Shown here: positions 1-15,168 of the stretch, one piece after another | How the letters are laid out: every line of letters starts with the position of its first letter | Position numbering within the stretch: the stretch's first letter is position 1 | From: Caldilineaceae bacterium SB0661_bin_34 | Lineage (GTDB): Bacteria; Chloroflexota; Anaerolineae; Caldilineales; Caldilineaceae | DNA: 64,000 nt | NCBI GenBank assembly: GCA_009841145.1 | Contig: VXMJ01000017.1 | Span: 1-64,000, forward strand | Direction of reading: 5' to 3' | The notes under the pieces: generated by a model | What the model was told of the DNA's origin: nothing | Seen by the model: the letters and a program-made list of their open reading frames with translations, nothing else | Database searches by the model: none | Translations under genes and position numbers: made by a program

Positions 1-340
1 GCGGCAGGCCCCCGGCCGGGTCGTACCGCTCCCGGTCCTCGCACAGCTCGAGGAGCCGGTCGACGACATAGCGCAGCAGCCGGACCGCCAGATGGCGCTG
101 GCGCGAAGACTGGGCCTCGACGATCATCATGACGGTGCGCTGGCGCTCGGTGTCGAAGGTCCAGGCGGCATCGGCGATGCGTTCGCGCTCGGACTCCCGG
201 ACCGAACTGGTGGGACCGGCCCGCAGGGAGGGCCGTGCGACGGTACCGAGGTTGAACTCATCGGCCAACAGACGGGCCACGTCGTAGGCAAAGACGGGGC
301 TGGTGAGGATGCGCTTGTAGCGCCTGTCGTGCACTGCCAT
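1..340 (-). CDS. Rpn-like PD-(D/E)XK nuclease/transposase-related protein, N-terminal part
   Basis: The reading frame is open from an ATG at 340 to the window edge (113 codons), so the C-terminus is missing. It begins MAVHDRRYKRIL, then has an LLADEF stretch and a core VEAQSSRQR followed by RLLRYVVDRLLELCED. The HDxxYK start, the E-x-Q core and the following RLLRY helix are typical of the Rpn/PDDEXK_2 recombination-promoting nucleases, which are often labelled putative transposases. No partner gene is visible. A TTGCCT-18 bp-TAGAAT promoter lies about 40 bp upstream. Family assignment is from motif pattern only; activity cannot be judged without the C-terminal half. Confidence 0.6.
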   Translation of the reverse strand, partial: MAVHDRRYKRILTSPVFAYDVARLLADEFNLGTVARPSLRAGPTSSVRESERERIADAAWTFDTERQRTVMMIVEAQSSRQRHLAVRLLRYVVDRLLELCEDRERYDPAGGLP

Positions 341-816
341 GGCTGGAGCGACCACCGGACTGCCGCGGTTTCGAAGGCACGATTCTATGTGCAGTAGTCT
401 TCAACAGGCAAAAAACTGACCAAAGTTGCAATGGAACACCGCCGCGGGCGCGGGTGCCGCCCCTGCCTGACGGGCCGCACGGTGCCCATGCCGGCATTCC
501 CTGGAGGCATGCCAGGTGGGGATTCCGCCCTGGTGCCGGCGGGGACGGTGGCGGTACAGGCTCCCTGATGCGGACGCAGGGGCGCACCGCGGGCAGCGGT
601 CTCCAACGGAGGCGCAGGTGCCGCTGCGTGGACGCGCTTGGCAGCGGGATGGTGTGGCCGCCAATCTTGGGCATTCCGGGAATTCGTGCGCGGGCCTATG
701 GAACGGACAGGAGCCGGGATGCAGTCCGCGACGAGGGCTCCCCCGTCCTTTCCGGGTCCGACCAAATCAACAAAACTGAAACAGTGCTATCTCAAGGGAC
801 TTCCTTTGAAAGTTCT
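341..816. other. Intergenic, no gene recognised
   Basis: This stretch separates the edge gene from the 3' end of the first CAP gene. Apart from the candidate promoter at 382-411 I see no conserved coding signal; the overlapping open frames are low-complexity, Arg/Pro-rich and look like GC-rich chance frames. Confidence 0.5.
382..411 (-). promoter_or_regulatory. Candidate sigma-70-type promoter for the Rpn-like gene
   Basis: On the minus strand TTGCCT (411-406) and TAGAAT (387-382) are separated by 18 bp, about 40 bp before the ATG at 340. A TAGAAT-18 arrangement is also present upstream of the binding-protein gene near 50.9 kb. Prediction by eye only. Confidence 0.4.
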
Positions 817-2835
817 CTACCTCTCGACTTCGATGGCGTACTCGGTCAGCGCTACCGACTCTCCATCGACATCACCCCACAGAACCATGCTGTAGATGCC
901 CGGACCATGGGTTTGGATAACCTGGTTCAGGTCGGCTTCAATGCGGAACGAACCCGCCTCCACCTGCCAAATGTCGGCGGTCACCAGTGCCACGTCAACT
1001 CTCTTGCGGATCAGAAAGCCGTCCCTGATCTGTTGACGCAGCTGGTCGATTTCGGCCTCGTTGCCCGGCAACTGCAAGTTTGGATTGGCATCCCATGGGG
1101 CTGGACAGTGTTCCCAGTCCATCTCTCGACTTTCCCCCTCCAGCCAATAAAATCCGTCAGGCAGGGGCCGGGGGATGTAGGCAACCGGCCTCCCGGGTGA
1201 ATAGCAAAATGTCTGGGAAACTTGGCCCCGGGTGTAATCGGCCAAGGGAGGATCCCAGTTCACCACGACGTTGGTCCGGTCGTTCAGCTTCACCTCCGGT
1301 GTAACCTGACCCGCCATCGCAAGCCTGCCTCCCACCAACTCCGGGGACAGGCTGAACCGAACATATTCCCCCTCAAACACTTGCGCCACCACCATGGCCT
1401 GGCAACTGTTGGCGATGCCGATGTTCACTTCCCGGTGGTAGGGACGGAGGATGTTGTCCCGATGGCCGGGACTGTCCATAAGTCCTGCCATCGCATCATT
1501 GAGAACCTGTTCGGAAACGGGAGGCGCACAGAAGCCAGCCGGAGCATCCGCGATGCTCCTGAAGGAAAGGTTCTCGACACTGTAGTCGTGGCCCCCAGCC
1601 CAGGTGTGACGCATGGCCGGAGTCTCACCGCGCAGATTCCAGTGCGACATGTACCGATTTTCCGCCAAGTCTTCCGCGTGAAGCTGGGCACCTTCGTTGT
1701 ACGCCATAACCACCGATTCCAGACCCCTCAACGAACGCTCGCGGTTGATGAGTTCCAGCATGTGGAGCCGAAGCTCCGCCAACCTGTCCGCCTCGGGTCG
1801 AAAATCGGGAGGTCCGTTCCCTATGGGTTCCGTTGCGGCAACGGCATCGGTGGCAGGAGCCGAACCCGTCTCCGGCACGGGCTCATTGGAGACATCGGCA
1901 CTGATATCCCCGGCTATCGAAACCTCTGCTGTCGCCCCATTGCCCTCACGGGTGACCAGGGAGCTGTAAATCCAAGTGCCGTTCTCCAGTTCCAGCCACT
2001 CTCCGTCATCGCTGACGCCAACAACGACGACTTCCGTGCCGACTGGAAGGACCCGCACCACGGAAGAATCGGTACTCGGCCCAGCGCGAAGGTTGGAACC
2101 GATGTTGACAATCCCGGTCCAGCCGGCCGGGCCGGGTGCTGCCTCCTCCCGAGACGGGGAGGCCTCGGGTGGGGTAACAACCTGCGCCTCCGGGGTGACG
2201 TCCTGTGCCTCCGGGGCGATGGCCGGCGCCTCCGGGCTGCTAGGCCAGTTGGCCCCAAGTTCAGCGAACAACGCGGGCGGACAATCCCGGAACGCAGCAC
2301 TGGCGGCAACGAACGCCGAAAACGCCTGGGGATCGACTGTGAATTGGCCGGTGGAGGCATCGTAGGCGACTAATCCCATCAGATAGGTGGCCGAACCCGA
2401 CCCGGCCGGATCCGCGTATGTCCCTATGTCCGCAAGGTCGATAACGCTCTCCATGGGCAGCCACATGATGCCCTGTTGCGAGTCGGTGACCACCAGCCAA
2501 TCGGCTGCGAGATTTCGGTCCAGGAGCAATATCCACTGCTGCTTGGGCTCGGGCAGGCCCAAACTCGTACTCTGTGCCAGCGCAACGAGTCTCGGTCGCA
2601 CCTCGCGGCAGATATGCCGGTCCGGAGATGGCATGGCCGGTCCGGATTCGGAAACCACAACCGGCTGACGGCCGGAGGTGGCCATCCTGAGTTCGCTGTA
2701 CTTCAGATACCACGCGACTGAGATTCCGAACAGGAGCACAATTGCCACTAAAGGCAGGCTGCAACCGCACGAACACGGTCCCGACAGGCATCCCCGCCGG
2801 GGCCGGCGGGGAACGTGTCCTGGTGTGACGTACAT
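817..2835 (-). CDS. Membrane-anchored SH3 and CAP (SCP) domain protein
   Basis: A 672-residue protein read from the ATG at 2835; an in-frame TTG nine bases upstream is a poorer start. A Cys-rich cytosolic N-terminus precedes one membrane helix (about 26-46), then an extracellular region, a bacterial SH3 domain (about 230-292, containing NLRAGPSTDSSVV), a CAP domain (about 350-490) and a C-terminal domain of about 180 residues. CAP hallmarks are present: HAEDL, SHWNL, AGGHDYSVENL and SPGHRDNILRP, which supply the two His and two Glu of the CAP cavity. It is a paralogue of the gene at 5511-7493. CAP proteins are secreted and often bind lipid or glycan; the role here is unknown. Confidence 0.88.
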   Translation of the reverse strand: MYVTPGHVPRRPRRGCLSGPCSCGCSLPLVAIVLLFGISVAWYLKYSELRMATSGRQPVVVSESGPAMPSPDRHICREVRPRLVALAQSTSLGLPEPKQQWILLLDRNLAADWLVVTDSQQGIMWLPMESVIDLADIGTYADPAGSGSATYLMGLVAYDASTGQFTVDPQAFSAFVAASAAFRDCPPALFAELGANWPSSPEAPAIAPEAQDVTPEAQVVTPPEASPSREEAAPGPAGWTGIVNIGSNLRAGPSTDSSVVRVLPVGTEVVVVGVSDDGEWLELENGTWIYSSLVTREGNGATAEVSIAGDISADVSNEPVPETGSAPATDAVAATEPIGNGPPDFRPEADRLAELRLHMLELINRERSLRGLESVVMAYNEGAQLHAEDLAENRYMSHWNLRGETPAMRHTWAGGHDYSVENLSFRSIADAPAGFCAPPVSEQVLNDAMAGLMDSPGHRDNILRPYHREVNIGIANSCQAMVVAQVFEGEYVRFSLSPELVGGRLAMAGQVTPEVKLNDRTNVVVNWDPPLADYTRGQVSQTFCYSPGRPVAYIPRPLPDGFYWLEGESREMDWEHCPAPWDANPNLQLPGNEAEIDQLRQQIRDGFLIRKRVDVALVTADIWQVEAGSFRIEADLNQVIQTHGPGIYSMVLWGDVDGESVALTEYAIEVER

Positions 2836-3032
2836 GGAACGCAACCGGTAGTGGGTGCCTGTGCGAAGTTCAGCGCACCTGACGGCAAAGGCTCTCGATC
2901 AGCCCCGCGCCCACAATCAGGTTGCTGTGGGCAAGAACATAGTCCATCGGATGTCCGCTTCGGTTTGCCGTCGGACTTCAAACCGCAATCAAATGCAGTC
3001 CCGGAGTCTCGGCTTGCACGGTTTGGGGCGGT

Positions 3033-4217
3033 TCATCCGCCTGGACGCATGGCCGTCAAGACCCGAGCCGCGCCATGAAACCCCGACCACAGCATCCGCG
3101 TCGAGAGACCTGTCCCGAGGGAGGGCAGAAGTTCACCGACATTGAGGTCCTCGACGGCCGCCAAAGTCCTGCGCAATCCCGTGTGCACAAGCTCGAGGGC
3201 TGGCCCGGCTTCGGCTTCAAGCCCCCCACAAACCATGACTGTGTATTGCAGATGCCCCAGGATGTGCATCCGATAGGCATGCCACCAGACATCGAATGCA
3301 ATATCGGTGCCGGCACGTGCCATTGCCTCGCCGTACTCCTCGATCACATCACGCTCGACAGTCCGGCGGACATCCGGCTCCACGTTTGTGGCCAGAAACA
3401 AAGCTAGGTCGCGCATGCCTGACCCAATCGAGCACACTTGCCAGTCGATGACGGCCAATCTCGACGGATCTTGTGGATCGAAAAACAGGTTGTCCAGCCG
3501 GTAGTCGCCGTGCGTGAAGGTGAGGGGAACAAGACGCGCAGCCCGTCGCCAAAATGAAATCATCGAGCAGCCGAACTCAAGCATGACCCGGTTCAGCGGA
3601 GGCGACAGGTACTCCCCAAAATCCCTGCGGACCGACGGCAGGAACCACAGGTACAGGGCTTGCAACAGAAACAACTCCCAGCGCGACCTCTTCATCCAGA
3701 CTCTGGCAGCAAACCGTTCGTCCCGGATTTGGCCCAGAAACTGCGCGTGCAACATCGTTACACTGTGGAGGGCGACACGTGCCTGTTCTGCCGTCGCGCC
3801 GGCAATCTGGTCCACCTGCACCATCCCGGTCAGATCTTCTTGCACGATCACGCAATCATCCGTCTCTGCGTCGTAGTCGATGTAGTACAGACAGGGCGTG
3901 CGTACGAGAACATCATCCCGCAGACGCGAGTAGAACGCGTATTCCCGTTCGTGCAGTCCAAGCCGGCGGCTCATGGTGCGGCTGCGGCGATCGCGCCCTG
4001 GAAGTTTCACGATTACGGACGTCGGGGCATCGGGATCCTCATCGGCATACGCCAAACAGCAGCGCAGGATTTCTCCCACCAGGCCGCGACCAACGCCGAC
4101 AGGGACGGTTGATACCTGGGTCACTGCTGGAAATCCGGCACCTCCCGCAGCGAACGCGCGGTTTATCCAGTCGGTCGTGATGTCGGCGCCAATGTCGATC
4201 AGAGGCGGTTTCGACAT
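3033..4217 (-). CDS. Phosphotransferase of the CHK/EcKinase-like aminoglycoside-kinase fold
   Basis: A 394-residue kinase-fold protein. The ATG at 4217 is preferred over an upstream GTG because AGGA lies nine bases before it. The N-lobe holds the Lys of SVIVKLPG; the C-lobe holds the catalytic loop HGDYRLDNLFFD and the metal-binding VIDWQ. The latter two motifs define the APH/choline-kinase superfamily, and the overall length and arrangement resemble CHK/EcKinase-like members that phosphorylate hydroxylated lipids, steroids or other small molecules. The substrate is not predictable. It sits between two SH3 membrane-protein genes on the same strand with gaps of 120-200 bp. Confidence 0.85.
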   Translation of the reverse strand: MSKPPLIDIGADITTDWINRAFAAGGAGFPAVTQVSTVPVGVGRGLVGEILRCCLAYADEDPDAPTSVIVKLPGRDRRSRTMSRRLGLHEREYAFYSRLRDDVLVRTPCLYYIDYDAETDDCVIVQEDLTGMVQVDQIAGATAEQARVALHSVTMLHAQFLGQIRDERFAARVWMKRSRWELFLLQALYLWFLPSVRRDFGEYLSPPLNRVMLEFGCSMISFWRRAARLVPLTFTHGDYRLDNLFFDPQDPSRLAVIDWQVCSIGSGMRDLALFLATNVEPDVRRTVERDVIEEYGEAMARAGTDIAFDVWWHAYRMHILGHLQYTVMVCGGLEAEAGPALELVHTGLRRTLAAVEDLNVGELLPSLGTGLSTRMLWSGFHGAARVLTAMRPGG

Positions 4218-4337
4218 GGGGGAAGATCCTGGTTTTGGGGGACACACCGCTGCATTGTAGCGAGGGTTGCCACCAATATGCCGAGACGAGTTCCCGAACC
4301 AGAGCCACCCGACACGGCCGGGAGGGGACCCGCGGCC

Positions 4338-5264
4338 CTACGGATCCCCCTCCACCTGTGGATCGAGCACAACCAGTGACTGATGTATCCACGAACCGTC
4401 TTCGGTCTTCAGCCACTGTCCATCGATGCTGCGGTGGACCACCACGATCTCCGTGCCTGCATCCACTACTCCCCTGACGGCAAAGTTCAGGTTGGGCCCC
4501 GCGCGCAGATTCGCCCTGGCCGACACCGTGCCGGTCCTTGGCTGCAACAGTCCGAAGGATGAATCGGCAGGTTGCGGAACTGCCGGCGGTTCCGACTGTG
4601 CCGGGGGATCTTCCTCCAAGGGAGCGGAGTCCCGCAATGACAGGTCGGCCGGATCCATCCGGAACCGACCAAAACCCATGCCGTTCGCCACGAGTTCCTG
4701 CAGCCTGGCGGAATCGCAGCCCCTGAACATCGGGCTGGCAGCCATCGCTGCCATGCCGGTGACCGGAGACACTGTCGGAACCGGGATGGAACCTTCCCCC
4801 TCCGGGTGGCCGGCCTCACTGTTGTCCGCCGCGGGAGTAGCTGAACCCTCGGCCAGATAGGCGGTCTCGGAGTTCTGCAACGCCAGCCAGTGCATGTCTA
4901 TCCACAAGTATTCCGAACCGTTCGCAACCACCTGCCACGCACCGCCGTTGTGGGTGTCTGCAACATAGTGCCAACGGATGGCCCGGGCGGCTGCGCCCAG
5001 CCGGGTACTCATGAAAGACCGCAACTGGCGGCAACGGAGACCAACGGGTGAAGCCGGTACACTGCGCGGTTCGTTCACCACGCTTCGGGTGGTGGTGGCC
5101 GGTGGCCCGTTCAATTGCCTGAATTCCCTGTACCAGGCAACTCCAATCGAGGAAAACATCGCCAGCAGCACGACCAGGACAGCAACGCCACAGGTAAGGA
5201 ATCGCCAGACATGCCCGTGCGATCTCAGACTAAACAGGATTGTCTTGAGTACTGTCAACGCCAT
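4338..5264 (-). CDS. Membrane-anchored SH3-domain protein (CAP-less paralogue)
   Basis: A 308-residue protein starting at an ATG. One membrane helix (about 20-42, with VLVVLLAMF) is followed by an extracellular region with the same WQVVxxxxxYLW signature as its two neighbours, and a C-terminal bacterial SH3 domain (about 245-305, with SARANLRAGPNLNF and WIHQSLVVLD). It matches the N-terminal half of the flanking SH3/CAP proteins but ends just after the SH3 domain, so it is either a natural short form or a paralogue that lost its CAP part. No remnant of a CAP domain is visible in the 90 bp downstream. Confidence 0.8.
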   Translation of the reverse strand: MALTVLKTILFSLRSHGHVWRFLTCGVAVLVVLLAMFSSIGVAWYREFRQLNGPPATTTRSVVNEPRSVPASPVGLRCRQLRSFMSTRLGAAARAIRWHYVADTHNGGAWQVVANGSEYLWIDMHWLALQNSETAYLAEGSATPAADNSEAGHPEGEGSIPVPTVSPVTGMAAMAASPMFRGCDSARLQELVANGMGFGRFRMDPADLSLRDSAPLEEDPPAQSEPPAVPQPADSSFGLLQPRTGTVSARANLRAGPNLNFAVRGVVDAGTEIVVVHRSIDGQWLKTEDGSWIHQSLVVLDPQVEGDP

Positions 5265-5510
5265 CGTCTACGCGTCCATGCAACACAGGAATGCCGTGCC
5301 CCAACGCCAACATCCAGCTCCACTGAACATCTGGACCGGAGGGAATGGCGAAAGGCGCCTGCCATGGTCAAACATCACTGACACGGCGCTTCGGCACCCG
5401 GTCCTGCCGCTCCGGACGCAGCGACAACCACCTTGGCCGGCGACTCGGACCCATCGGCCGGATCCGCTAAGGATCCCGCGTGAACGAACAGGCCGTTCCG
5501 ACAGGATGGC

Positions 5511-7493
5511 CTAACCTGCACCCACGAATAGGGAGTAGAGCGACAGCGGGATGGCGGCCCCGGAAAGATCGCCCTGCAGCTCGACCGTATAGATGCCGGG
5601 CCCCATGATATCGATTACTTGGCTGAGGTCCGCCTCGATGCGAAACAGATCCGGTTCCTCGTGCCAGACATCGGCGGCAGCTACCATGACGTTCACGGTC
5701 CTGGTTTGGAGTTCGAAACCCCGTCCCGCCCTGTGTTGCAGCATCTGTTCCACGTCCTCCGGGAACCGCAGCGACGGATCCGCTTCCCTAGGCGATTGGC
5801 AACGGACCCATTCACGTTCGACAATCTGATTCAGTTCAAGACTGCCCGAAGTTCCAACAGGAACGAGTTCGAGAATTGGCATCGGCTCATGACGACACCC
5901 GGTCTGCCACAGCTGGGACCGGGACGATCCCGTCAGCGGCTGTTCCCATCGAATCAGGAGGCCCGCACCCTCCTTCAGCGTCACGCCGCCCAACAGATTG
6001 CCCTCCATAACGAGTCTGCCGTCCACCAGTTGAGGGACGGCCACGAAGCGAACAAACTCGCCTTCGAACAGTTGCACCATGGTCTTGAGGCTGCAACCGG
6101 AAGCCAGGCCGATGCTCACTTCCCTGTAATGCGGATTCAGAAGAGCGTCCCGGTGCAGGCTGCTGGCCAACAACTGATCCGTCATCTCGTCGATGTCGTC
6201 CGTCGACATCGGTGGCAGACAGGCCGCATTGCCTGCCGCCGGATACCCCAGGTAGGCAACATTCTCCGCGCTGTAATCGTGTCCCCCAGCCCACGTATGT
6301 CGCATGTAGGAGGTTTCCAGTTTCAGGTTCCAGTGGGACACGTAGTGATTGCGCACCATGTCGTAGGCGTGGGCCTGCGCGGCCCCGATGTAGGTTGGGG
6401 TTACTGGTTCCAGTTCCCTGCCCGTCCGCACTTCATTGATTCGGTCCAAGGCATGATTCAGGAGGACCAGCCGCTGCAAATCGTCGAGAAAATCCACCCG
6501 GGTGGAGCCTGGATCCTCCCCGTCCGGCACGTCCTCGAGTTCCACAAGGGATGCATGGATCCAGGAACCTGCGGTCAACTGCCACCACTCGCCGTCCTCG
6601 CTCTGTTCCAGCACCATAATCCGCGTGCCCGGTTCCAGCACTTCCTGGACTTGGTGTTCCAGACCCGGACCCAGGCGAAGATTGGCTTGCGTCACGACCA
6701 CTGCAATGCGCCCCGCGGGATCTTCCGGTGTGGATGTGGGCGGTACGACGGTGGGGGTTGGAAGGAGCGGGGTATTGGTTGGCGGTGCGGTCGGCGTAGG
6801 CTCCGGGATCTCCACCGTGGCTGTTGGTTCAACCGGAGTGGTAGGCGTTGGTGTACTGGTCGGCGTTGGATCCGCGGCCTCCGCACCACTTGGCGCCGCA
6901 GGCACCTCGGCCACGGGGACAGCGGCCAGTGAACCGCGGGAAGTCATGTCGGCCAGAATGGCTGGATCGCAATCGCGGAACAAGGGACTGGCGGCAAATA
7001 CGTTCAAAGTCGCGGACGGTTCCGGCACCAGACCGGCAAACCACTCGGTGGGCAATGCGTAACCGACGGCGCGCAGTACCCCTTCCGAGGTATCGGTGCC
7101 TGTTTCCACCCTGTCCCAAAGATAACCGGTCGGACCTCCAGCCACCTGCCACAGGTCTCCGCGGACGTTGTCCACGGCAAACAGCCAGTGGGGCATGTCC
7201 GAACCCGCAACTGCGGATGTCGAGGTCCACAGGAGATAGCGGGGTTCCCTACAGAGGACAATGTCTTCCGGCCGGGGCAACCGGTCCATTGGGACAGGCT
7301 GTGTCATCGTTCCCACATGCACCGCCTGCCTGATACGCGCATAGGCACCGTACCAGGGCACGGCCACAACCACAGCCAGTATCACGGATACCAGCGCGAC
7401 GATACAGCCGCAGTTGAAGAGCTTGGCCCTAAATCCCGGCCGGCCGCTTGGAGAAGCGGAGCCGAACGCCTCCTCAAAGGAATCTGTAGGCAT
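5511..7493 (-). CDS. Membrane-anchored SH3 and CAP (SCP) domain protein with Thr/Pro linker
   Basis: A 660-residue paralogue of the gene at 817-2835. It starts at an ATG; a membrane helix (about 27-50) follows NCGC. An extracellular region with the same core as its neighbours leads into a Thr/Pro-rich linker (about 205-255) made of TPTPT-like units, then an SH3 domain (about 262-322), a CAP domain (about 341-485, with SHWNL, AGGHDYSAENV and SSLHRDALLNP) and a conserved C-terminal domain. The linker is typical of cell-surface proteins that cross a wall and is absent from the first paralogue. Gene order suggests duplication in place. Confidence 0.88.
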   Translation of the reverse strand: MPTDSFEEAFGSASPSGRPGFRAKLFNCGCIVALVSVILAVVVAVPWYGAYARIRQAVHVGTMTQPVPMDRLPRPEDIVLCREPRYLLWTSTSAVAGSDMPHWLFAVDNVRGDLWQVAGGPTGYLWDRVETGTDTSEGVLRAVGYALPTEWFAGLVPEPSATLNVFAASPLFRDCDPAILADMTSRGSLAAVPVAEVPAAPSGAEAADPTPTSTPTPTTPVEPTATVEIPEPTPTAPPTNTPLLPTPTVVPPTSTPEDPAGRIAVVVTQANLRLGPGLEHQVQEVLEPGTRIMVLEQSEDGEWWQLTAGSWIHASLVELEDVPDGEDPGSTRVDFLDDLQRLVLLNHALDRINEVRTGRELEPVTPTYIGAAQAHAYDMVRNHYVSHWNLKLETSYMRHTWAGGHDYSAENVAYLGYPAAGNAACLPPMSTDDIDEMTDQLLASSLHRDALLNPHYREVSIGLASGCSLKTMVQLFEGEFVRFVAVPQLVDGRLVMEGNLLGGVTLKEGAGLLIRWEQPLTGSSRSQLWQTGCRHEPMPILELVPVGTSGSLELNQIVEREWVRCQSPREADPSLRFPEDVEQMLQHRAGRGFELQTRTVNVMVAAADVWHEEPDLFRIEADLSQVIDIMGPGIYTVELQGDLSGAAIPLSLYSLFVGAG

Positions 7494-7651
7494 AGCATGC
7501 TCTTGAACAGCGTTACTGTATCAGCCCGGACCTGCAGGCTCTCATCGCGCACGGTGCACTCCACCGGGCGCCGTGGACAACGGCCCGAACCCAGTCCCTG
7601 TAGCATAGGCCGGATCCACCGGCCGCAATGCCACCAGTGCCCACACACGCC

Positions 7652-8503
7652 ATGAACCTGCAAATCCACGTTGGCGACAACCTGCCCATCCTGGAGGCCA
7701 TGCCTGCGGCATCCGTCGACCTGATCTACATCGATCCCCCCTTCAACACCGGCCGCACGCAAACCCGAACCACCCTGCAGACGGTCCGCGACGAGGAACG
7801 GGGCGATCGGACCGGGTTTCAGGGTCACCGGTACCGCACCACAGAGGTAGGCCGCCTTTCATATGCCGACTCGTTCTCGGACTATCTGGACTTCATCGGC
7901 CCCAGGGTGGAACAGGCCCTGCGCCTGCTCAGACCCCACGGCTCTTTCTTCTTCCACATCGACTACCGGGAGGTCCACTACTGCAAGGTCCTGATCGACT
8001 CGGTGTTTGGACGGGACAACTTCATGAACGAAATCATCTGGGCCTACGACTACGGCGGCCGGTCCCGGAAGCGCTGGTCCCCCAAACATGACAACATTCT
8101 CTGGTATGTGCGGGATGCCAACCGCTACACCTACCGGTTCGACGACATCGACCGCATCCCCTACATGGCCCCCGGCCTGGTGGGCCCGGACAAGGCGCGC
8201 CGGGGCAAGACCCCGACCGACTGCTGGTGGCAGACTATCGTCAGTCCCAACAGCCGGGAGAAGACCGGCTACCCCAGCCAGAAACCGCTGGCCCTGCTCA
8301 ACCGAATCATCCGGGTGCACTCCAATCCCGGCGATACCGTGTTGGACTTCTTTGCCGGGTCGGGCACCACGGGAGAAGCCGCCCTGGGCAACGGACGCCA
8401 CGCCATCCTGGTGGACTCCAGCCCGGAGGCCATTGAGGTCATGGTCCGGCGACTGGCTATCTGGGATCCCGAAGTCATCCGTCCCCGGGATATGCAGACA
8501 TAG
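7652..8503 (+). CDS. Site-specific DNA methyltransferase, beta class
   Basis: A 283-residue amino-methyltransferase. The N-terminal MNLQIHVGDNL start is preferred because it begins directly at the conserved GDN motif; an ATG at 7628 is in frame. Catalytic motif IV is DLIYIDPPFNTG near the N-terminus and the SAM-binding motif I, DFFAGSGTTGEAAL, is near the C-terminus, the order that defines beta-class adenine-N6 or cytosine-N4 enzymes. The YPSQKP motif precedes motif I. No restriction endonuclease gene is adjacent, so it may be an orphan regulatory methyltransferase. It lies 334 bp upstream of a toxin-antitoxin pair. Confidence 0.92.
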   Translation: MNLQIHVGDNLPILEAMPAASVDLIYIDPPFNTGRTQTRTTLQTVRDEERGDRTGFQGHRYRTTEVGRLSYADSFSDYLDFIGPRVEQALRLLRPHGSFFFHIDYREVHYCKVLIDSVFGRDNFMNEIIWAYDYGGRSRKRWSPKHDNILWYVRDANRYTYRFDDIDRIPYMAPGLVGPDKARRGKTPTDCWWQTIVSPNSREKTGYPSQKPLALLNRIIRVHSNPGDTVLDFFAGSGTTGEAALGNGRHAILVDSSPEAIEVMVRRLAIWDPEVIRPRDMQT

Positions 8504-8837
8504 GGAATCATGGGACCGTGTGCCCCGCGAACCATCAATTCAACGGCTATTCCTCTTCACGGACCGCGTCCGTGTCCACCGGCTGCCTCCGGGCTATTGT
8601 TCTCCCTGTACCAACCCAGGACACCACCACGACAGCACACATGCCAACCACTTGTTATCGCAGCCAGATCTGTGCATGCACGTTCCGGCAATTGAGGTCA
8701 ACCTCTTGGGAGTCAACACTCCCGTGCATCCGCAATGGTCATCTCGAGCGCAGTAGTCTTTGAACTGTTGGTGATGGCGACAGAAGACTCACAACCTCGC
8801 TGCCAACAGATATGACCCTCATGTCATATAATGGGTC
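8504..8837. other. Intergenic, two small hairpins
   Basis: No gene is visible. Two adjacent perfect hairpins lie at 8694-8705 (GAGGT/ACCTC) and 8708-8723 (GGGAGT/ACTCCC) without a U-tract. The 3' end carries the higBA promoter/operator described separately. Confidence 0.45.
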
Positions 8838-8843
8838 ATGACA
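8812..8843 (+). promoter_or_regulatory. higBA promoter with interlocked operator repeats
   Basis: TATAAT at 8827-8832 ends only five bases before the toxin ATG, so the transcript is probably leaderless. Two interleaved inverted pairs cover the box: ATGACCC (8812-8818) with GGGTCAT (8833-8839), and ATGTCAT (8821-8827) with ATGACAT (8837-8843). This is the kind of site the HigA antitoxin would bind to repress the operon. The -35 region is weak. Confidence 0.6.
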
Positions 8844-9191
8844 TGGGAAGTTAACTTCCATCCGGCGTTCTATAAGGAGTTCCAAGGCTTGGCACCAGAT
8901 GTGCAGGATGAACTGCTTGCGCACGCGCAGGTCTTGGAAGAGTTTGGACCAATGCTGGGCAGACCGCTGGCGGACACACTCAAGGGGTCGCGACACGCCA
9001 ACATGAAGGAGCTCCGTTTCAACGCCTCCGGTGGGGTCTGGCGAACCGCATTTGCATTCGACCCCAGTCGGAAGGCCCTCTTGCTTGTTGCCGGCAACAA
9101 ATCCGGTACATCTGAACGGCGCTTCTACAAACAGCTGATCAGGAAGGCGGACGAACGCTTCGATGAGCATCTGAGTCAATTGCAAAGATGA
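8838..9191 (+). CDS. higB: HigB-type toxin of the RelE/ParE superfamily
   Basis: A 117-residue protein of the phage Gp49-like/HigB group: MTWEVNFHPAFYKEF at the start, a helical GLAPDVQDELLAHAQ, then the beta-sheet core LKGSRHANMKELRFNAS, VWRTAFAFDPSR and LLLVAGNKSG. Proteins with this pattern are ribosome-dependent mRNA interferases that are held inactive by a cognate XRE antitoxin. The toxin gene comes first, as in other HigBA loci, and ends just before the antitoxin start. TATAAT immediately upstream of the ATG implies a leaderless mRNA. Assignment is by fold signature and gene order. Confidence 0.9.
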   Translation: MTWEVNFHPAFYKEFQGLAPDVQDELLAHAQVLEEFGPMLGRPLADTLKGSRHANMKELRFNASGGVWRTAFAFDPSRKALLLVAGNKSGTSERRFYKQLIRKADERFDEHLSQLQR

Positions 9192-9202
9192 AGGAGACAT
9201 TG

Positions 9203-9553
9203 ATGACCACCCTCAAGGAGGCTATGGACAAGCTGCCAGCGGCGCGGCGACAGAAAGTAGAGGCTCGAGCCCAAGCACTGATTGCCGAGGAGATGTCACT
9301 GAGGGACCTGCGAAAGGCACTTAGCCAAACCCAGGTGAGCGTCGCCGAGAAGTTGGGAATCAACCAGGAGAACGTATCCCGGCTCGAACAGCGTAGCGAT
9401 CTGTTGCTTTCGACACTCAGCGGTTACGTGGAGGCGATGGGCGGGAAGCTGAGCTTGATTGCACAGTTCCCCGATCGGCCGCCGGTAGCCCTGACGGGCA
9501 TTGCGGCACTTGACGAAAAGAGCCCGGCAGCCAAGACACTTGACTCGACCTGA
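9203..9553 (+). CDS. higA: HigA-type antitoxin with XRE helix-turn-helix
   Basis: A 116-residue protein. The ATG at 9203 is preferred because AAGGAG lies eight bases before it; an ATG at 9188 overlapping the toxin stop is the alternative. An N-terminal helical segment (ARRQKVEARAQALIAEEM) precedes a canonical XRE helix-turn-helix with SQTQVSVAEKLGINQENVSRLEQR, then a segment (LSTLSGYVEAMGGKLSLIAQF) shared by the HigA subgroup that pairs with Gp49-like toxins. It should neutralise the toxin and bind the interlocked repeats upstream of the operon. Confidence 0.9.
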   Translation: MTTLKEAMDKLPAARRQKVEARAQALIAEEMSLRDLRKALSQTQVSVAEKLGINQENVSRLEQRSDLLLSTLSGYVEAMGGKLSLIAQFPDRPPVALTGIAALDEKSPAAKTLDST

Positions 9554-9639
9554 ACACGGACAGCCCCGGCAATGATTGCGTCAACCGCTTGAGGCCGGTG
9601 CATCCCCGGACAGGACGGGACCGGCAATCTGATGCGGCA

Positions 9640-9663
9640 GGTCCGGCTGTTCGGTACCGGACC
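9640..9663. terminator. Weak hairpin between convergent genes
   Basis: GGTCCGG (9640-9646) pairs with CCGGACC (9657-9663) around a 10-base loop, between the 3' ends of higA and the chromate transporter. No clear U-tract on either strand, so function as a terminator is tentative. Confidence 0.3.
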
Positions 9664-10859
9664 TATGTCAGCCACAGCCATCCTACTGCTGCCGCAACAA
9701 TCACCAGTAGCCAGGACGGCACGCGCCAGAACACGAGCCCGGTAAACGCAGCCAGAGCCATCAAAAAGGTGCGACCATCTGTAACTGCTGAGACCCAAAT
9801 CGGCTGGTACAGGGCTGCCAGCAGAACCCCGACGACCGCGGCGTTGATGCCCATCTGGGCCTTCTGAACCGGTCCGTGACGCTGTACCGCGGACCAGAAC
9901 GGCAACACACCGAACAGCAGCAGGAACGACGGCAGGTAGATTGCCGCCAGACAGAACAACGCCCCCTGCCAACCGCTGGGGAACGGTGCCAGCACCGTTC
10001 CCAGATAGGCGGACAGACTGAACAGGGGCCCGGGCACGGCCTGGGCCGCGCCGTAGCCGGCCAGGAACTCGCTCGACGTCACCCAGCCCGGGGACACCAC
10101 CGTGGCCTGCAGCAACGGCAGGACCACATGCCCGCCACCGAACACCAAAGAGCCGGAACTGAAGAAGCTCAGGAATACCTTCACCAACTGGTGGTCCGCC
10201 AGCGCGGGAACCAGACCCGGCAGTAGTGCCGGTGCTGCCAACAGCACTGCAAGCAGAACCAGGCAGAACATCGAAAGACCGCGGCCAATGCCCAACTCCC
10301 GGGTTGCGGACGGCGGTTCCCTGTCGTCCAGGGCAAGCCACTGCCCGGCCACGGCAGCCAGCCCCATCATCAACAGGGGTGCCAGGGAGGAGGGAATCAA
10401 CAGGGAGCCGGCCGCTCCGACCACTGCCATGGACACGCGCACGCGATCAGGGCAGAACTGGTTCGCCATGCGCCAGACCGCTTGGGCTACCACCGCCACG
10501 GCCACCGTCTTGAGGGCGGTCAACAACCCCGGGGGAATGCTGTCGCGCCACACTGTTACCCCGTAGCCGAAGGCCACCATCACGAGCACGGAGGGAAGCA
10601 GAAATGCAATCCAAGCGAGGAACGCTCCGGCCAGTCCGGCGCGCGCCAAGCCGATGCCAATGCAGACCTGACTGGAGGCCGGACCGGGCAGGAACTGGCA
10701 GATGGCCACCAGGTTCCCATAGTCGCGCGCGGTGAGCCACCCGCGTCTCTGTACGAATGCCTCGTGGAAGTAGCCCAGGTGGGCAACGGGGCCGCCGAAG
10801 GAGGTCAGGCCCAACCGCAGGAACACCCGGAAGACTTCGCCGAGGTTGCCTGGATTCAT
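9663..10859 (-). CDS. chrA: Chromate efflux transporter (CHR family)
   Basis: A 398-residue polytopic membrane protein, the usual length of two-domain CHR transporters. The N-terminal half has FLRLGLTSFGGPVAHLGYF and CQFLPGPASSQ; the C-terminal half repeats the pattern as FFSSGSLVFGGGHVVLPLL and GAAQAVPGPLFS. These duplicated FGGP/FGGG and PGP motifs define the family, whose members expel chromate, probably by proton or sulfate antiport. About ten hydrophobic segments are visible. It stands alone between HigBA and a sulfatase gene, so link to sulfate handling is only a possibility. Confidence 0.93.
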   Translation of the reverse strand: MNPGNLGEVFRVFLRLGLTSFGGPVAHLGYFHEAFVQRRGWLTARDYGNLVAICQFLPGPASSQVCIGIGLARAGLAGAFLAWIAFLLPSVLVMVAFGYGVTVWRDSIPPGLLTALKTVAVAVVAQAVWRMANQFCPDRVRVSMAVVGAAGSLLIPSSLAPLLMMGLAAVAGQWLALDDREPPSATRELGIGRGLSMFCLVLLAVLLAAPALLPGLVPALADHQLVKVFLSFFSSGSLVFGGGHVVLPLLQATVVSPGWVTSSEFLAGYGAAQAVPGPLFSLSAYLGTVLAPFPSGWQGALFCLAAIYLPSFLLLFGVLPFWSAVQRHGPVQKAQMGINAAVVGVLLAALYQPIWVSAVTDGRTFLMALAAFTGLVFWRVPSWLLVIVAAAVGWLWLT

Positions 10860-11001
10860 TGATCGCAGCCTACAGGTCCATAGACAGTTTCGGCTGCCTG
10901 ATCGCCATGGGCGGACACCGGGATGCCGGCATCATGCGGACCGCGGTCGCCTGATTGTGCCGGCCAACCGCAACGCATGCGTCTCCGATGCAGCCCTAAG
11001 A

Positions 11002-12414
11002 TCAGTAGTAGAGGATCTGTCGGGTGCCCGGATCCACGGCGCGGGCCAAGGCATCGAAGTTCCGCTGCATGAGCCGAAACCGCAGGTCGGCACTGCCGGG
11101 ATCGTCCCACAGGTTGTTGTGTTCCCGCGGGTCGGCCTCAAGATCAAACAGCTCTCCCACGTCAAGACCGTGGTAGTTCACAATCTTGTGGGTTCGGGTG
11201 CGCAGCATGGTGGCGTACATGCCGGTGAACTCCTCGCGGCCCGGCACGTCGGAATTCAAGGCGCTGTAGTACTCGGTTCGCACGAACTCCCGGTGAGCCC
11301 GATCATCGGCCTGTCCGGTCAGAATGGGCATGAGGGATCGGCCCTGCATTCGCTGGGGGATTTCCAGCCCCGCCACCTCCAGCAGCGTTGGTGTCAAGTC
11401 CAGGAGCTCCACCAAGGCATCGCTGACGCGGCCGGCCTGTACGGTCCCCGGCATGGAGATGATCAACGGTACCCTGACCAGGCCTTCGTAGAAGCGGCAT
11501 CCCTTCAAAACTAGGCCGTGATCTCCGAGTGCCTCCCCATGGTCCGACGTGAAGATGACGAGCGTGTTTTCCCGCTCACCGTGTTCATCAAGCCAGTCCA
11601 GCATGCGGCCCACGTTCTCGTCCACCAGTTCGATCATGGCGTAGTAGGCCGCATGGATCTCCCGGCCATCGAACTCGTCCGGGTGCTGGGGCGAAGTTTG
11701 GAAATCGACGCCGGTCAGCCTGGCCTGGGCCTCCAGATCCGAGTCCCTGAACCAGGGACCCGGCAACCGATCCTTGTCGAACCGCTCTCGGTAATCAGCC
11801 GGCGGATCAAACGGGGGATGGGGATCGAACATGTTGACCGACATCAGCCACGGACCATCGCGCTCCTCGGCCATGAACTCCAGCGCCCGGTCCGTGCAGA
11901 ACGTGGTCTGGTGGTACTCGGCCGGGATTGGTTCCGCTGCCGCATGCAGTTCGCCCAGGTCGGCTCCCTTTTCGCGGACCCAGCGCCGGTAGGCGTGATC
12001 CTCGCCCCATTCGTCGCGGGGCGAGTGGCTCCACTCGAACATCCGGTAACCATCGTCCCGGGGTCGCGGCTCGGTGCGATGGCTGGCACCGGCCAGGTGC
12101 AACTTGCCCGACAGGCCACAGTCGTAACCGGACCCGTCCCGCAGTGTAACCGTCACCAGCTCCGCGGCCTCCGCCCACAGGTCGTTGCCGTTGCGACAGC
12201 CGTGGACCGTGCTCGGGTAGAGCCCGGTCAGGAAGCTGGAACGGCTGGGGGTACAGATGGGGCTCTGGCAGAAGGCCAGGTCAAAGGCCGTGCCTTCGGC
12301 ACAGAGCCTGTCCAGGTTTGGCGTGTGCACATGGGGATTGCCCAAGGCGCCGATTGTGTCGAACCGCTGCTGGTCCGAGCATATCCAGAGAATGTTGGGA
12401 GCTGAATTCGACAT
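11002..12414 (-). CDS. Type I sulfatase
   Basis: A 470-residue alkaline-phosphatase-fold hydrolase. The start at 12414 (MSNSAPNILWICSDQQ) is chosen because family members begin directly before the metal-binding SDQQR; the frame extends a further 21 codons upstream. The formylglycine motif is C54-T-P-S-R, followed by SSFLTGLYPS. Later metal and active-site signatures are FDPHPPFDPP and TSDHGEALGDHG. It therefore needs a formylglycine-generating enzyme, not seen in this window. It lies 16 bp downstream of a dehydrogenase gene on the same strand. It is a close paralogue of the sulfatase at 58364-59779. No signal peptide is evident, so a cytoplasmic role is likely. Confidence 0.92.
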   Translation of the reverse strand: MSNSAPNILWICSDQQRFDTIGALGNPHVHTPNLDRLCAEGTAFDLAFCQSPICTPSRSSFLTGLYPSTVHGCRNGNDLWAEAAELVTVTLRDGSGYDCGLSGKLHLAGASHRTEPRPRDDGYRMFEWSHSPRDEWGEDHAYRRWVREKGADLGELHAAAEPIPAEYHQTTFCTDRALEFMAEERDGPWLMSVNMFDPHPPFDPPADYRERFDKDRLPGPWFRDSDLEAQARLTGVDFQTSPQHPDEFDGREIHAAYYAMIELVDENVGRMLDWLDEHGERENTLVIFTSDHGEALGDHGLVLKGCRFYEGLVRVPLIISMPGTVQAGRVSDALVELLDLTPTLLEVAGLEIPQRMQGRSLMPILTGQADDRAHREFVRTEYYSALNSDVPGREEFTGMYATMLRTRTHKIVNYHGLDVGELFDLEADPREHNNLWDDPGSADLRFRLMQRNFDALARAVDPGTRQILYY

Positions 12415-12430
12415 GCCTGCACTCCCGGGG

Positions 12431-13480
12431 CTAGAGATCGGGACTGAGGACAATCTTAACCACCGTGTCATCGCCAAGCCGGTAGTCGCCGTTCAGAGCC
12501 TGGAAACCGTCTCGGACCTGTTCCAGCGGCAGGACATGACTCACCATGTCGGCATACGGGAACTCCAGCTTCTCAAGGATCGGCATGGCGCGCACGAAGT
12601 GGTCCTCGCCACTGCCCCAAATCGCCTCAACCCGGCAGTTGCGGACCATGAGCGACCGGTTGATGTTGAACTCCAGCGTGCCCATGTCGACAAAATGGCC
12701 CACCTCAACGAAGGTGCCGCTGTGCCGCAGGTATCCCAGGCCTTCAGGTGTGGCCGGCAGGAATCCGGCGCATTCGAACACCCGGTCCGCGCCCCGACGG
12801 CCCGGCGTGGCATCCAGGACCAGCTCCGTGCGCTCCTCGCCGGATGTCACTTCTTCAATGTCAATCGTGACGTCGGCGCCGAACTTGCGGGCCAGATCCA
12901 ACCGCGCGGCCGGACCTCCGACCACGATGATTTTGCCGGCACCGGACACCTTGGCGCAGATCGTGGTGACCAGCCCGATGGCACCGGAGCCCTGCACCAC
13001 CACCGTGTCGCCAAACTGAATGTCACCGCGCATGATGGCGTGCACCCCGACCGTGAACGGCTCGGTCAACACGGCTACCTCGGGCGGCAGGTCGGTCTTG
13101 ATGAAACAGGTATTCGGCTTGTCCAGGTACACATAGTCCGAGAACCCGCCGTAGAAGTGGGGGGCGGCATCCGGTTCGGTGTAGAAACCGTAGGCACCCG
13201 AACTGGTGCCTGGCTTGAAGATGATGCGGTCACCTTCCTTGACCGGAACGCCGTTCCAGTCCGTTGCCACATCCTTGCCGAGGTCGGTGATGACACCGAC
13301 GTTTTCGTGACCCAGCACCATCTCCTTGCTGAAACCGTTCTGCCACATGTGCAAGTCGGTGCCGCAGATGCCGGCCAGCTCCTGCTTGATTACCACGGCG
13401 TCCGCCGCCGGCGCAGGGACATCGTATTCCCTGATGGCGAACTCCTGGCCCTTGGCTACGATGAGTCGGCCGCTCTTCAT
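12431..13480 (-). CDS. Zinc-type medium-chain alcohol/polyol dehydrogenase
   Basis: A 349-residue MDR-family enzyme with AAGGAG before its ATG. Catalytic-zinc ligands are seen in GICGTDLH, GHENVG and the TEPF Glu; the NAD(P) site is VVQGSGAIGLV. The four-Cys structural zinc loop is absent: the segment between EGDRIIFKPG and FSDYVYL carries no Cys. It has a paralogue immediately upstream at 13661-14716 (many identical stretches such as FECAGFLPA and MVSHVLPLE), and a sulfatase gene 16 bp downstream, so it probably oxidises a sugar alcohol or polyol released in that pathway. Exact substrate unknown. Confidence 0.9.
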   Translation of the reverse strand: MKSGRLIVAKGQEFAIREYDVPAPAADAVVIKQELAGICGTDLHMWQNGFSKEMVLGHENVGVITDLGKDVATDWNGVPVKEGDRIIFKPGTSSGAYGFYTEPDAAPHFYGGFSDYVYLDKPNTCFIKTDLPPEVAVLTEPFTVGVHAIMRGDIQFGDTVVVQGSGAIGLVTTICAKVSGAGKIIVVGGPAARLDLARKFGADVTIDIEEVTSGEERTELVLDATPGRRGADRVFECAGFLPATPEGLGYLRHSGTFVEVGHFVDMGTLEFNINRSLMVRNCRVEAIWGSGEDHFVRAMPILEKLEFPYADMVSHVLPLEQVRDGFQALNGDYRLGDDTVVKIVLSPDL

Positions 13481-13660
13481 GGGAGGATGCTCCTTGTGAT
13501 TTGGATCGGGCTAAGGGGTGGAAAATGCCGGGACACCCCTTGTGGCAGATCGGTTTGAATTCGCGCCTTCTGCCAGCGTTCCATTATCCGCGAGAGGCAA
13601 ACAATGGCTTTTTCCGCCGACACGGAAACCGGCGGCGGATCGCCTCGGACCCGGCTCCGC

Positions 13661-14716
13661 TCAGTCGAACATCGCAGGATCGCGGGCCAGGGCGATTTTG
13701 ACCACATCCTCGCCATCCAGCGAATAGGTGCCGTTCAGGGCGTCAAAACCGGCCTGCACCCTTTCCAAAGGCAACACGTGGCTCACCATCTCGCCGATGG
13801 GCAGGTCCGACTGCTCAAGCAGGGCATGCCCACGCACGAAGTGGGGGAAGCGACTGCCCCAAATCCCCTCCACCCGAATGTTGGGGATCAGGATGTGGCG
13901 AGCCGGGTTGATGGGGACTTCGCCAATGTCGACAAAATGCCCGCACTCTATGAACTTGCCATCCTGCTTGACATATCCAAAGCCTTCCGGCACGGCCGGC
14001 AGGAACCCGGCGCACTCGAACACGACATCGGCGCCTTCACCCCGGGTCAGGTCCATCACCAGTTCATGGCGAGCCTCCTGCTCGGAATGGACCGCAATGT
14101 CAATGGTTTCGTGGGCTCCCAGACGCCTGGCCAGTGCCAAGCGGCCGGACGGTCCCCCGATCACGATGACCCTGGCCGCGCCGCTCAGACGGGCACAGAT
14201 CATGACCATCAGACCGATTGCGCCGGAGCCCTGCACGAGCACCGTGTCACCCAACTGGACCTCGGCCCGCATCACGGCATGGGTGCCAATGGCAAACGGC
14301 TCCGCAAGCACGGCGGTCCGTGGATCCGTTTCAGTCCGGATCACACAGGCATCCGGATCGTCCAGGTGGACATACTCCGCAAACCCGCCCGAAAACGGCG
14401 ACTCCAGACCGCGGTAGCCGAACGGCTTGCCAAGGGCGTTGCGCGGGTGGTACACAACCCGATCGCCCTCCCGCAGGGGGTTGCCAAGGTAGTCGCGGCT
14501 GCGTCCGGAACCCAGCGCCGCCACCGTGCCCACGGCCTCGTGCCCCAACAGCGTGGGTTCGGGCAGACCGTTTTGCCAGTTGTGGAGATCGGTGCCGCAA
14601 ATTCCACCGAGTTCCTGTTGCAGCAGCAGCCCGCCGGTCGCAGGGTCGGGCACCCGGCCCTGCTCCACCGAAAAGGCCTGTCCGGTGACGACCACCGCGC
14701 GCCCTGTCAAGTCCAT
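13661..14716 (-). CDS. Zinc-type medium-chain alcohol/polyol dehydrogenase, paralogue
   Basis: A 351-residue MDR enzyme and tandem duplicate of the next gene downstream. It keeps the catalytic-zinc signature (GICGTDLHNWQNG, GHEAVG, AEPF), the nucleotide-binding VLVQGSGAIGLM and the C-terminal FECAGFLPAVPEG. Like its partner it lacks the Cys-rich structural-zinc loop. A 180-bp gap separates the two, so they may share a promoter or be separately expressed. Two diverged copies beside a sulfatase suggest two related substrates rather than simple dosage, but that is inference. Confidence 0.9.
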   Translation of the reverse strand: MDLTGRAVVVTGQAFSVEQGRVPDPATGGLLLQQELGGICGTDLHNWQNGLPEPTLLGHEAVGTVAALGSGRSRDYLGNPLREGDRVVYHPRNALGKPFGYRGLESPFSGGFAEYVHLDDPDACVIRTETDPRTAVLAEPFAIGTHAVMRAEVQLGDTVLVQGSGAIGLMVMICARLSGAARVIVIGGPSGRLALARRLGAHETIDIAVHSEQEARHELVMDLTRGEGADVVFECAGFLPAVPEGFGYVKQDGKFIECGHFVDIGEVPINPARHILIPNIRVEGIWGSRFPHFVRGHALLEQSDLPIGEMVSHVLPLERVQAGFDALNGTYSLDGEDVVKIALARDPAMFD

Positions 14717-14763
14717 GGAAATTCCCTATCCTGTATGTCAGTTTCAGTTTCTCTCGGCGGCAC

Positions 14764-15168
14764 CTAGCGGTCGTCGCCGTCCCCGCCAATTTTGCCCCGT
14801 TCCCGGCGGGACGACAGCTTCGCGATGTTGGCCTGGGCCACCTCCGCCAGGCTCAGGTCCAGCTGTGTGCAAATCTGGGTCAGGTACCACAGGACATCGC
14901 CCAACTCGCCCTTGAGCGCCTCCCGGTCCGCCTCGGTGATCTGTCCGTCGCGATCCCTGAATATCTTCTTGACCTTGCCGGCCAGTTCGCCGGCCTCGTT
15001 AGTCAGGCCCAGAGTGGGATAGACGATCGGATGATTTGTTTCTATCACTCCCCAGGTGGCGAAGGACTGTGCCTGGTACCAGTCGAACATGTCCTTGACA
15101 TCGCCCGACGCGACATCACCGGACACCGGTGGCTGCTTGCCCACGGCCAACCCCTTGCAGCCCGTCAT
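14764..15168 (-). CDS. MazG-like nucleotide pyrophosphohydrolase
   Basis: A 134-residue all-alpha NTP-PPase. The ATG at 15168 overlaps the stop of the upstream ABC gene in an ATGA junction, which fixes the start and indicates translational coupling. Metal-binding motifs are NEAGELAGKVKKIF and GELGDVLWYL, the E-x(2)-E and E-x(2)-D arrangement of MazG/dUTPase-like enzymes that hydrolyse nucleoside triphosphates to monophosphates. The open frame continues far upstream through the ABC gene but only this portion is conserved. Coupling to an exporter is unusual; the enzyme may clean non-canonical nucleotides. Confidence 0.88.
   Translation of the reverse strand: MTGCKGLAVGKQPPVSGDVASGDVKDMFDWYQAQSFATWGVIETNHPIVYPTLGLTNEAGELAGKVKKIFRDRDGQITEADREALKGELGDVLWYLTQICTQLDLSLAEVAQANIAKLSSRRERGKIGGDGDDR

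Follow-up and report, generated by a model that had tools for sequence, protein, structure and literature searches.

A cluster of four minus-strand genes was characterized in Caldilineaceae bacterium SB0661_bin_34, a member of the Chloroflexota. It lies at positions 817-7493 of a stretch of 64,000 nucleotides (the window; contig VXMJ01000017.1, assembly GCA_009841145.1). Three of the genes, named B, S and A, encode paralogous proteins with a predicted membrane anchor and an SH3 domain. The fourth, K, encodes a small-molecule kinase. A and B end in a CAP domain followed by a conserved C-terminal domain (CTD). As judged from profile matches, this CTD is the uncatalogued second half of a CAP+CTD module that occurs across Chloroflexota. 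The cluster is real, conserved and ordinary in kind, its products belonging with CAP and SH3b surface proteins. The parts are known; what is new is their combination, a genus-specific extracellular domain (ectodomain) and the widespread, uncatalogued partner domain of CAP. The preferred reading is that A and B each present a ligand-binding head, tethered to the wall, on a membrane stalk and that S is the same stalk without a head. This mechanism is proposed at the level of architecture with moderate confidence, and any specific ligand for the head with much less.

The open reading frames (ORFs) of all four genes were located where an earlier note on this DNA had placed them. Transcription on the minus strand runs in the order B, S, K, A, with gaps of 246, 90 and 188 bases between the genes. 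The features are as follows.

5511..7493, minus strand: gene B, 660 amino acids (aa); anchor, ectodomain, Pro/Thr-rich linker, SH3_3, CAP and CTD
7344..7415, minus strand: predicted membrane anchor of B, residues 27-50 approximately, read from the sequence, the AlphaFold2 (AF2) model of S having a helix in the corresponding position
6939..7271, minus strand: ectodomain of B, genus-specific, bounded by two conserved cysteines
6543..6689, minus strand: SH3_3 domain of B (Pfam and genome scan)
6069..6449, minus strand: CAP domain of B, with putative cavity residues H387, E410, E436 and H447 by alignment
5514..6068, minus strand: CTD of B, by profile and alignment
4338..5264, minus strand: gene S, 308 aa; anchor, ectodomain and SH3, without CAP
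4716..5033, minus strand: ectodomain of S, C78 to C183
4371..4517, minus strand: SH3_3 domain of S (Pfam and genome scan)
3033..4247, minus strand: gene K, 404 aa; small-molecule kinase of the EcKL/APH superfamily
817..2844, minus strand: gene A, 675 aa (672 from ATG 2835); anchor, ectodomain, linker, SH3_3, CAP and CTD
2281..2610, minus strand: ectodomain of A, C79 to C188
1954..2094, minus strand: SH3_3 domain of A (Pfam and genome scan)
1390..1758, minus strand: CAP domain of A, with putative cavity residues H401, E424, D450 and H461 by alignment
820..1392, minus strand: CTD of A, a predicted beta-sandwich

The start of gene A is more likely ATG 2835, three codons inside TTG 2844, because the sequence can be aligned in all four genomes of the genus from ATG 2835 onward.

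A and B aligned over almost their full length (33% identity, E 2e-98). S aligned to A (32%) and to B (25%) across the anchor, ectodomain and SH3 domain. Ectodomain profiles compared after removal of the transmembrane and SH3 parts gave hhalign probabilities of 77-94%, against at most 2.2% in 60 column shuffles per pair, and the best match among the pairs was S with B. The earlier note had described a paralogous triplet with a shared N-terminal anchor and extracellular domain, a third member without CAP and a kinase gene inside the cluster. All of this was borne out by the alignments and profile matches, by Pfam, which gave S an SH3_3 domain only, and by the position of K (EcKL/APH) between S and A. 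The signature WQVV...YLW given in that note for all three ectodomains is exact in S only; B carries the variant WQVAGGPTGYLW and A the variant WLVV...IMW. Conserved features of the ectodomain are the two cysteines (C79 and C188 in A, C78 and C183 in S), several tryptophans and the motif AAS..FR.C. The domain is probably closed by a disulfide.

Strong matches to the ectodomain profile (A6) were found in four of 46 family genomes, with three copies in each. One more family genome (G029) gave a weak partial match at E 0.0017. Four of 298 genomes of the class matched and all were from this genus. By these matches, and at the thresholds used, the ectodomain is confined to the genus and always within the triplet. 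No Pfam or NCBIfam family covered the ectodomain or the CTD of the cluster proteins. PDB sequence searches for relatives of the ectodomain and the CTD returned nothing at E ≤ 1 with profile A3 and a single weak SH3 match, 2kt8, with profile A4. The ectodomain was also considered as a hidden second SH3b, its W.VV...W recalling the C-terminal half of an SH3 domain. This was rejected, the resemblance extending over 20 columns only; hhalign against 30 SH3 domains gave a probability of 1.1% and a score of 14.6, the best of 100 column shuffles scoring 13.2.

The SH3_3 family (PF08239) matched A at E 2e-08 (34.7 bits against a cut-off of 27 bits). B (E 5.7e-06, 26.9 bits) and S (E 9.7e-06, 26.1 bits) fell slightly below that cut-off, and in a whole-genome scan the SH3_3 domains of A, B and S were all marked over it. 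The NCBIfam matches of the cluster proteins, to YkwD, SH3-anchor and APH-type models, were all below threshold. A phylogeny of the three SH3 domains, proposed in the earlier note, placed S with B (82/74) and A outside them, in a weak tree with 15 of 27 inner branches open and several long branches. S is read as a head-less copy because its SH3 and its ectodomain are both nearest to those of B. The earlier note had also claimed local duplication with domain loss. The duplication was upheld by a single clade of A and B (100/100) in the tree of CAP+CTD proteins described below; the loss of the CAP+CTD head from S is weakly supported, by the grouping of its SH3 with that of B and by the best ectodomain match.

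Pfam CAP (PF00188) matched A (E 4.3e-06, 28.0 bits) and B (E 1.3e-05, 26.4 bits) over the cut-off of 21.1 bits. An AF2 model of the CAP+CTD part of A, made from 28 alignment rows, reached a predicted local distance difference test score (pLDDT) of 90.4 and a predicted template modelling score of 0.88. It comprised an alpha-beta-alpha CAP domain and then a beta-sandwich of about nine strands. The predicted CAP domain shared its fold with bacterial YkwD/SCP-type CAP proteins at Z 10.9-18.4: the SCP-domain protein 4ifa of B. anthracis (Z 18.4, root mean square deviation (rmsd) 2.0, 127 residues), Borrelia BB0689 (4d53, Z 17.1), S. aureus SAV1118 (4h0a, Z 14.6) and Enterococcus PrgA (6z9k). A and B have in common with this type the Pfam match over cut-off and, by alignment, probably most cavity residues. 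They differ from it in the motif variants SHWN...MR[HY]TWAGG and FEGE, and in the addition of the CTD at the C-terminal side and of SH3b and the membrane anchor at the N-terminal side. A PDB sequence search with profile A7 returned CAP structures only, plus one chance-level match. By alignment the cavity tetrad would be H/E/E/H in B and H/E/D/H in A, and the metal/ligand cavity appears mostly intact in both. In the available text of PMC4921858 the His-Glu-Glu-His tetrad of Pry1 holds a divalent cation on which sterol binding depends, and the tetrad is not kept by all known CAP proteins, SmVAL4 being an example.

Structure matches to the CTD reached Z 7.7 at most (FlaF, MAdCAM-1, TarK and others, all unrelated Ig-like domains), which is within the range of a common arrangement. 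The predicted fold can be described only as an Ig-like beta-sandwich and as nothing narrower. Foldseek aligned CAP and CTD jointly to chain P of the Tetrahymena nexin-dynein regulatory complex (N-DRC) linker (8th8 and 8tid; 299 and 304 columns, E 5.2e-07 and 1.1e-06). VIA Z was 14.4 and 15.0 over 217 and 226 residues, at an rmsd of 7.8-18 with the domains arranged differently, and no sequence match was found. This likeness of a predicted model is a lead only.

With the B protein as query in 46 family genomes, no match outside the genus ran more than a few dozen residues past the SH3/linker region. A profile of the CTD alone, at E ≤ 0.001, matched three genomes out of 400 from the phylum, the own genome included, and it is the CAP+CTD profiles A5 and A7 that show the wide distribution. 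These matched 71 of 298 genomes of the own class at 1e-10, mostly with CAP only, and 63 of 393 genomes of a second class, that of genome G239, at 1e-6, many with CAP only. Reading of the frames brought in at least 43 more proteins or protein pieces that match CAP+CTD; the proteins counted are a sample of loci, those among the matches listed. The other Chloroflexota proteins (L054-L080, L140-L154) have the same CAP followed by CTD and were placed with A and B in a 28-row alignment and a 48-row tree. Of the 51 CAP+CTD proteins among the matches listed, the 8 with a detected SH3 are all A or B; none was detected in the 43 others, some of which are lipoprotein-like or have other N-terminal parts. 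Eight CAP+CTD relatives were scanned, all of the class of G239, and no Pfam or NCBIfam family covered their CTD. The profile searches proposed in the earlier note thus gave different outcomes for the two domains, the ectodomain being found in the genus only and the CTD as part of a Chloroflexota-wide module. The description of the C-terminal domain as unassigned stands with respect to Pfam and NCBIfam; the domain is not special to the cluster, occurring in many Chloroflexota genomes. A new family model is warranted because the CTD is conserved, confidently foldable and, in the proteins tested, unmatched by Pfam or NCBIfam, and it accompanies CAP in dozens of Chloroflexota proteins. A literature search, with most subscription journals outside it, found no description of this cluster or of the CTD. 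Three of the CAP+CTD loci had unusual forms. L063 carries two CAP+CTD modules in tandem within a single open frame, L059 has RCC1 repeats joined to CAP+CTD, and the CAP+CTD gene at L077:3-794 in genome G493 is interrupted by one stop codon.

For the tree, 3 of 51 CAP+CTD pieces with fewer than 200 aligned residues were dropped (L152 and two pieces of L077) and 48 rows were kept; the 67-residue fragment L081 was never entered. The clade of A and B grouped with 12 rows of the class of G239 (96/94), apart from the 14 own-class rows. Three diagnostic motifs, picked after the alignment had been seen, were present in all eight A/B rows and in none of the 14 own-class rows. In the other class, FEG was found in 21 of 26 rows, MR[YH] in 19 and G[VI]Y[TSV] in all 26. 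The last of these stands near the C-terminus of proteins in which the CTD directly follows CAP, and own-class rows have a variant form instead. Mean identity was higher to the other class than to the own class for A (32.9% vs 27.7%) and for B (27.6% vs 23.8%). An approximately unbiased (AU) test did not reject the placement of A and B with the own class (log-likelihood difference 2.5, p 0.245). Transfer between classes was dropped as a firm claim; acquisition of the head from another Chloroflexota class is graded as probable, because of this p value and the post hoc choice of motifs, both of which speak against it. The duplication into A and B would date from after the acquisition or, in a donor outside the sample, from before it.

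B, S, K and A were kept in order and strand in all four genomes of the genus (G000-G003), which are close relatives, limiting the weight of the shared order. The triplet is adjacent and its paralogues were found nowhere else in the family genomes searched. Pairwise ratios of nonsynonymous to synonymous substitution rates (dN/dS) were 0.31-0.49 for A, 0.25-0.34 for S and B, and 0.18-0.38 for K. Ratios for the neighbouring methyltransferase and chromate transporter genes were 0.08-0.23 and 0.06-0.17, respectively. A, B and S are under purifying selection, looser than that on the neighbours. The cluster genes are taken as real because they have syntenic orthologues in four of four genomes and dN/dS of 0.25-0.49. 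The same values, with the copy number fixed at three in all four genomes, do not support the surface diversification suggested in the earlier note. Positive selection was rejected, no pair exceeding a dN/dS of 0.49 as a whole-gene average.

K matched EcKL (PF02958) at 1.7e-17 (64.2 bits against a cut-off of 22) and APH at 2.4e-13. It shares with the EcKL/CHK-type kinases the APH-type motifs HGD...N and IDW, read from its sequence, and is itself bacterial. It was the sole EcKL match at E ≤ 1e-5 in the own genome, and an EcKL match was present in 9 of 31 relatives examined. The protein is predicted to be cytosolic. Between the window and the congeneric locus L045 (2454-3839), which belongs to a second species, K had 98% protein identity and a synonymous distance (dS) of 0.047. 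The kinase stretch was probably exchanged by recent recombination, because this value lies within flanks (A, S and B) of dS 0.21-0.26. The blastn identity along the locus peaks over K.

The gene mraY encodes the committed membrane step of peptidoglycan synthesis. A match over cut-off was found in all four genus genomes, in 12 of 14 own-class genomes and in 2 of 26 other-class genomes carrying CAP+CTD; one further other-class genome had a match below cut-off. The available text of PMC6306507 reports peptidoglycan genes in sponge Caldilineae/Anaerolineae and none in SAR202. The presence of the CTD mostly in genomes without mraY suggests that this CAP subtype works without peptidoglycan, and offers a handle on the ligands of bacterial CAP proteins. 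Peptidoglycan is unlikely as the ligand of the head, because the nearest head relatives are mostly in cells that are probably without it.

In the proposed mechanism B, S and A would be held in the cytoplasmic membrane by the N-terminal helix and would face outward. Nearest the membrane each would have its genus-specific ectodomain, probably closed by a disulfide, followed by a Pro/Thr/Glu-rich spacer and then by an SH3b whose most likely binding partner is the peptidoglycan wall. The stalk of A and B would end in a two-domain head, CAP packed on the beta-sandwich of the CTD. This head, a ready-made Chloroflexota module probably taken from another class, would have been joined to an anchor-SH3b stalk in a walled lineage and then duplicated. 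The SH3b would have been added as a wall-binding module in this lineage, because among the CAP+CTD proteins SH3 was detected only in A and B, and the fusion would amount to re-targeting of the module to the wall. S would be a head-less partner or a spacer. Most likely the head would bind an external ligand at the cell surface, probably a hydrophobic molecule or a glycoprotein of a host or neighbour and not peptidoglycan.

Several observations weigh against parts of this mechanism. The AF2 model of S had a mean pLDDT of 46 and was confident for the anchor and SH3 only, and poor over the ectodomain. Some SH3-like domains do not bind peptidoglycan, and 30 SH3_3 matches at E ≤ 0.01 were found in the own genome. 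Own-class CAP+CTD carriers without a detected SH3 do have mraY, and therefore the presence of a wall alone does not predict fusion to SH3. In the B orthologue of L045 the CAP histidine H447 is gone, and some copies may therefore do without the cavity. A promoter and terminator scan found nothing above shuffles, and a single B-S-K-A transcript is at most a possibility.

The number of SH3_3 matches and the gaps between the genes would also fit a set of functionally unlinked genes, in which ordinary Caldilineaceae surface proteins lie side by side by chance, with K a metabolic gene of no relation to them. The separate history of K, seen in its low dS and in the identity peak, points the same way. 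The order and strand kept in four of four genomes, albeit close relatives, and the adjacency of three paralogues found nowhere else in the genomes searched argue against this explanation, which is possible but doubtful. A role as cell-division or wall-maintenance factors is unlikely. The CAP domain would then bind or remodel peptidoglycan with the help of SH3b, as a counterpart of DalA, a divisome lipoprotein of Rhodobacterales. The mraY gene of the genus is consistent with such a role, as is the SH3b of lysostaphin, known to bind the wall (PMC6461655), and the NCBIfam DalA model (NF052539) matched the CAP region of several CAP+CTD relatives below cut-off (E 8e-13 to 1e-3, far below 200 bits). 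The same model left A, B and S unmatched at E ≤ 0.1, and mraY over cut-off was missing from 24 of the 26 other-class CAP+CTD genomes, in which the module evidently works without peptidoglycan. DalA is not known to have an SH3b or CTD. The available text of PMC10470522 reports that DalA binds peptidoglycan and localises to the septum; it describes an outer-membrane lipoprotein, unlike the membrane-anchored A and B.

The bacterium belongs to a sponge-associated group, and the cluster could be a set of genes for interaction with a host. CAP heads would then bind sponge molecules or block host recognition, as eukaryotic CAP proteins act extracellularly. The restriction of the ectodomain to the genus and protein evolution faster than that of the neighbours agree with this, as does a congener, Caldilineaceae bin34 (MPMO01), which the available text of PMC5649159 gives as a bin from the sponge Aplysina aerophoba. 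A sponge source was traced for this one congener bin only, CAP+CTD occurs widely in genomes of the Chloroflexota, and pairwise dN/dS gave no sign of positive selection; the explanation is judged improbable. A narrower and highly speculative version, for which very little probability is allowed, would link K to the surface proteins in a lipid or sterol unit of a sponge symbiont. The CAP+CTD head, of a type that binds sterols or lipids, from a mostly peptidoglycan-less class and retargeted to the wall via SH3b, would capture host sterols or similar hydroxylated lipids, and K, as an enzyme resembling ecdysteroid kinases, would phosphorylate them in the cell. The preferred reading remains that of wall-tethered heads on membrane stalks.

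A phage origin of the cluster was rejected, PHROGs giving weak CAP- and SH3-type matches to A only and none to S, B or K. PADLOC matched none of the four genes as defence, and no RNA element reached the gathering score within positions 1-15000. A DNA methyltransferase gene lies divergent from gene B at 7628-8503 on the plus strand (N6_N4_Mtase 9e-47; PADLOC type II methyltransferase 2.2e-129). At 8838-9553, also on the plus strand, Pfam identified a Gp49-like (HigB-type) toxin gene overlapping a helix-turn-helix antitoxin-like gene. Positions 8545-9194, which include most of the toxin gene, had no blastn alignment in L044 or L046 and were present in L045, and the pair looks variable in the genus. 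The start of a YhgA-like/Rpn-type gene (PF04754, 3.7e-07) was found at 2-355 on the minus strand, where the end of the contig truncates it. Two similar genes, judged by eye to resemble zinc-type alcohol dehydrogenases, lie next to each other on the minus strand at 12431-13480 and 13661-14716, after a sulfatase gene at 11002-12477.

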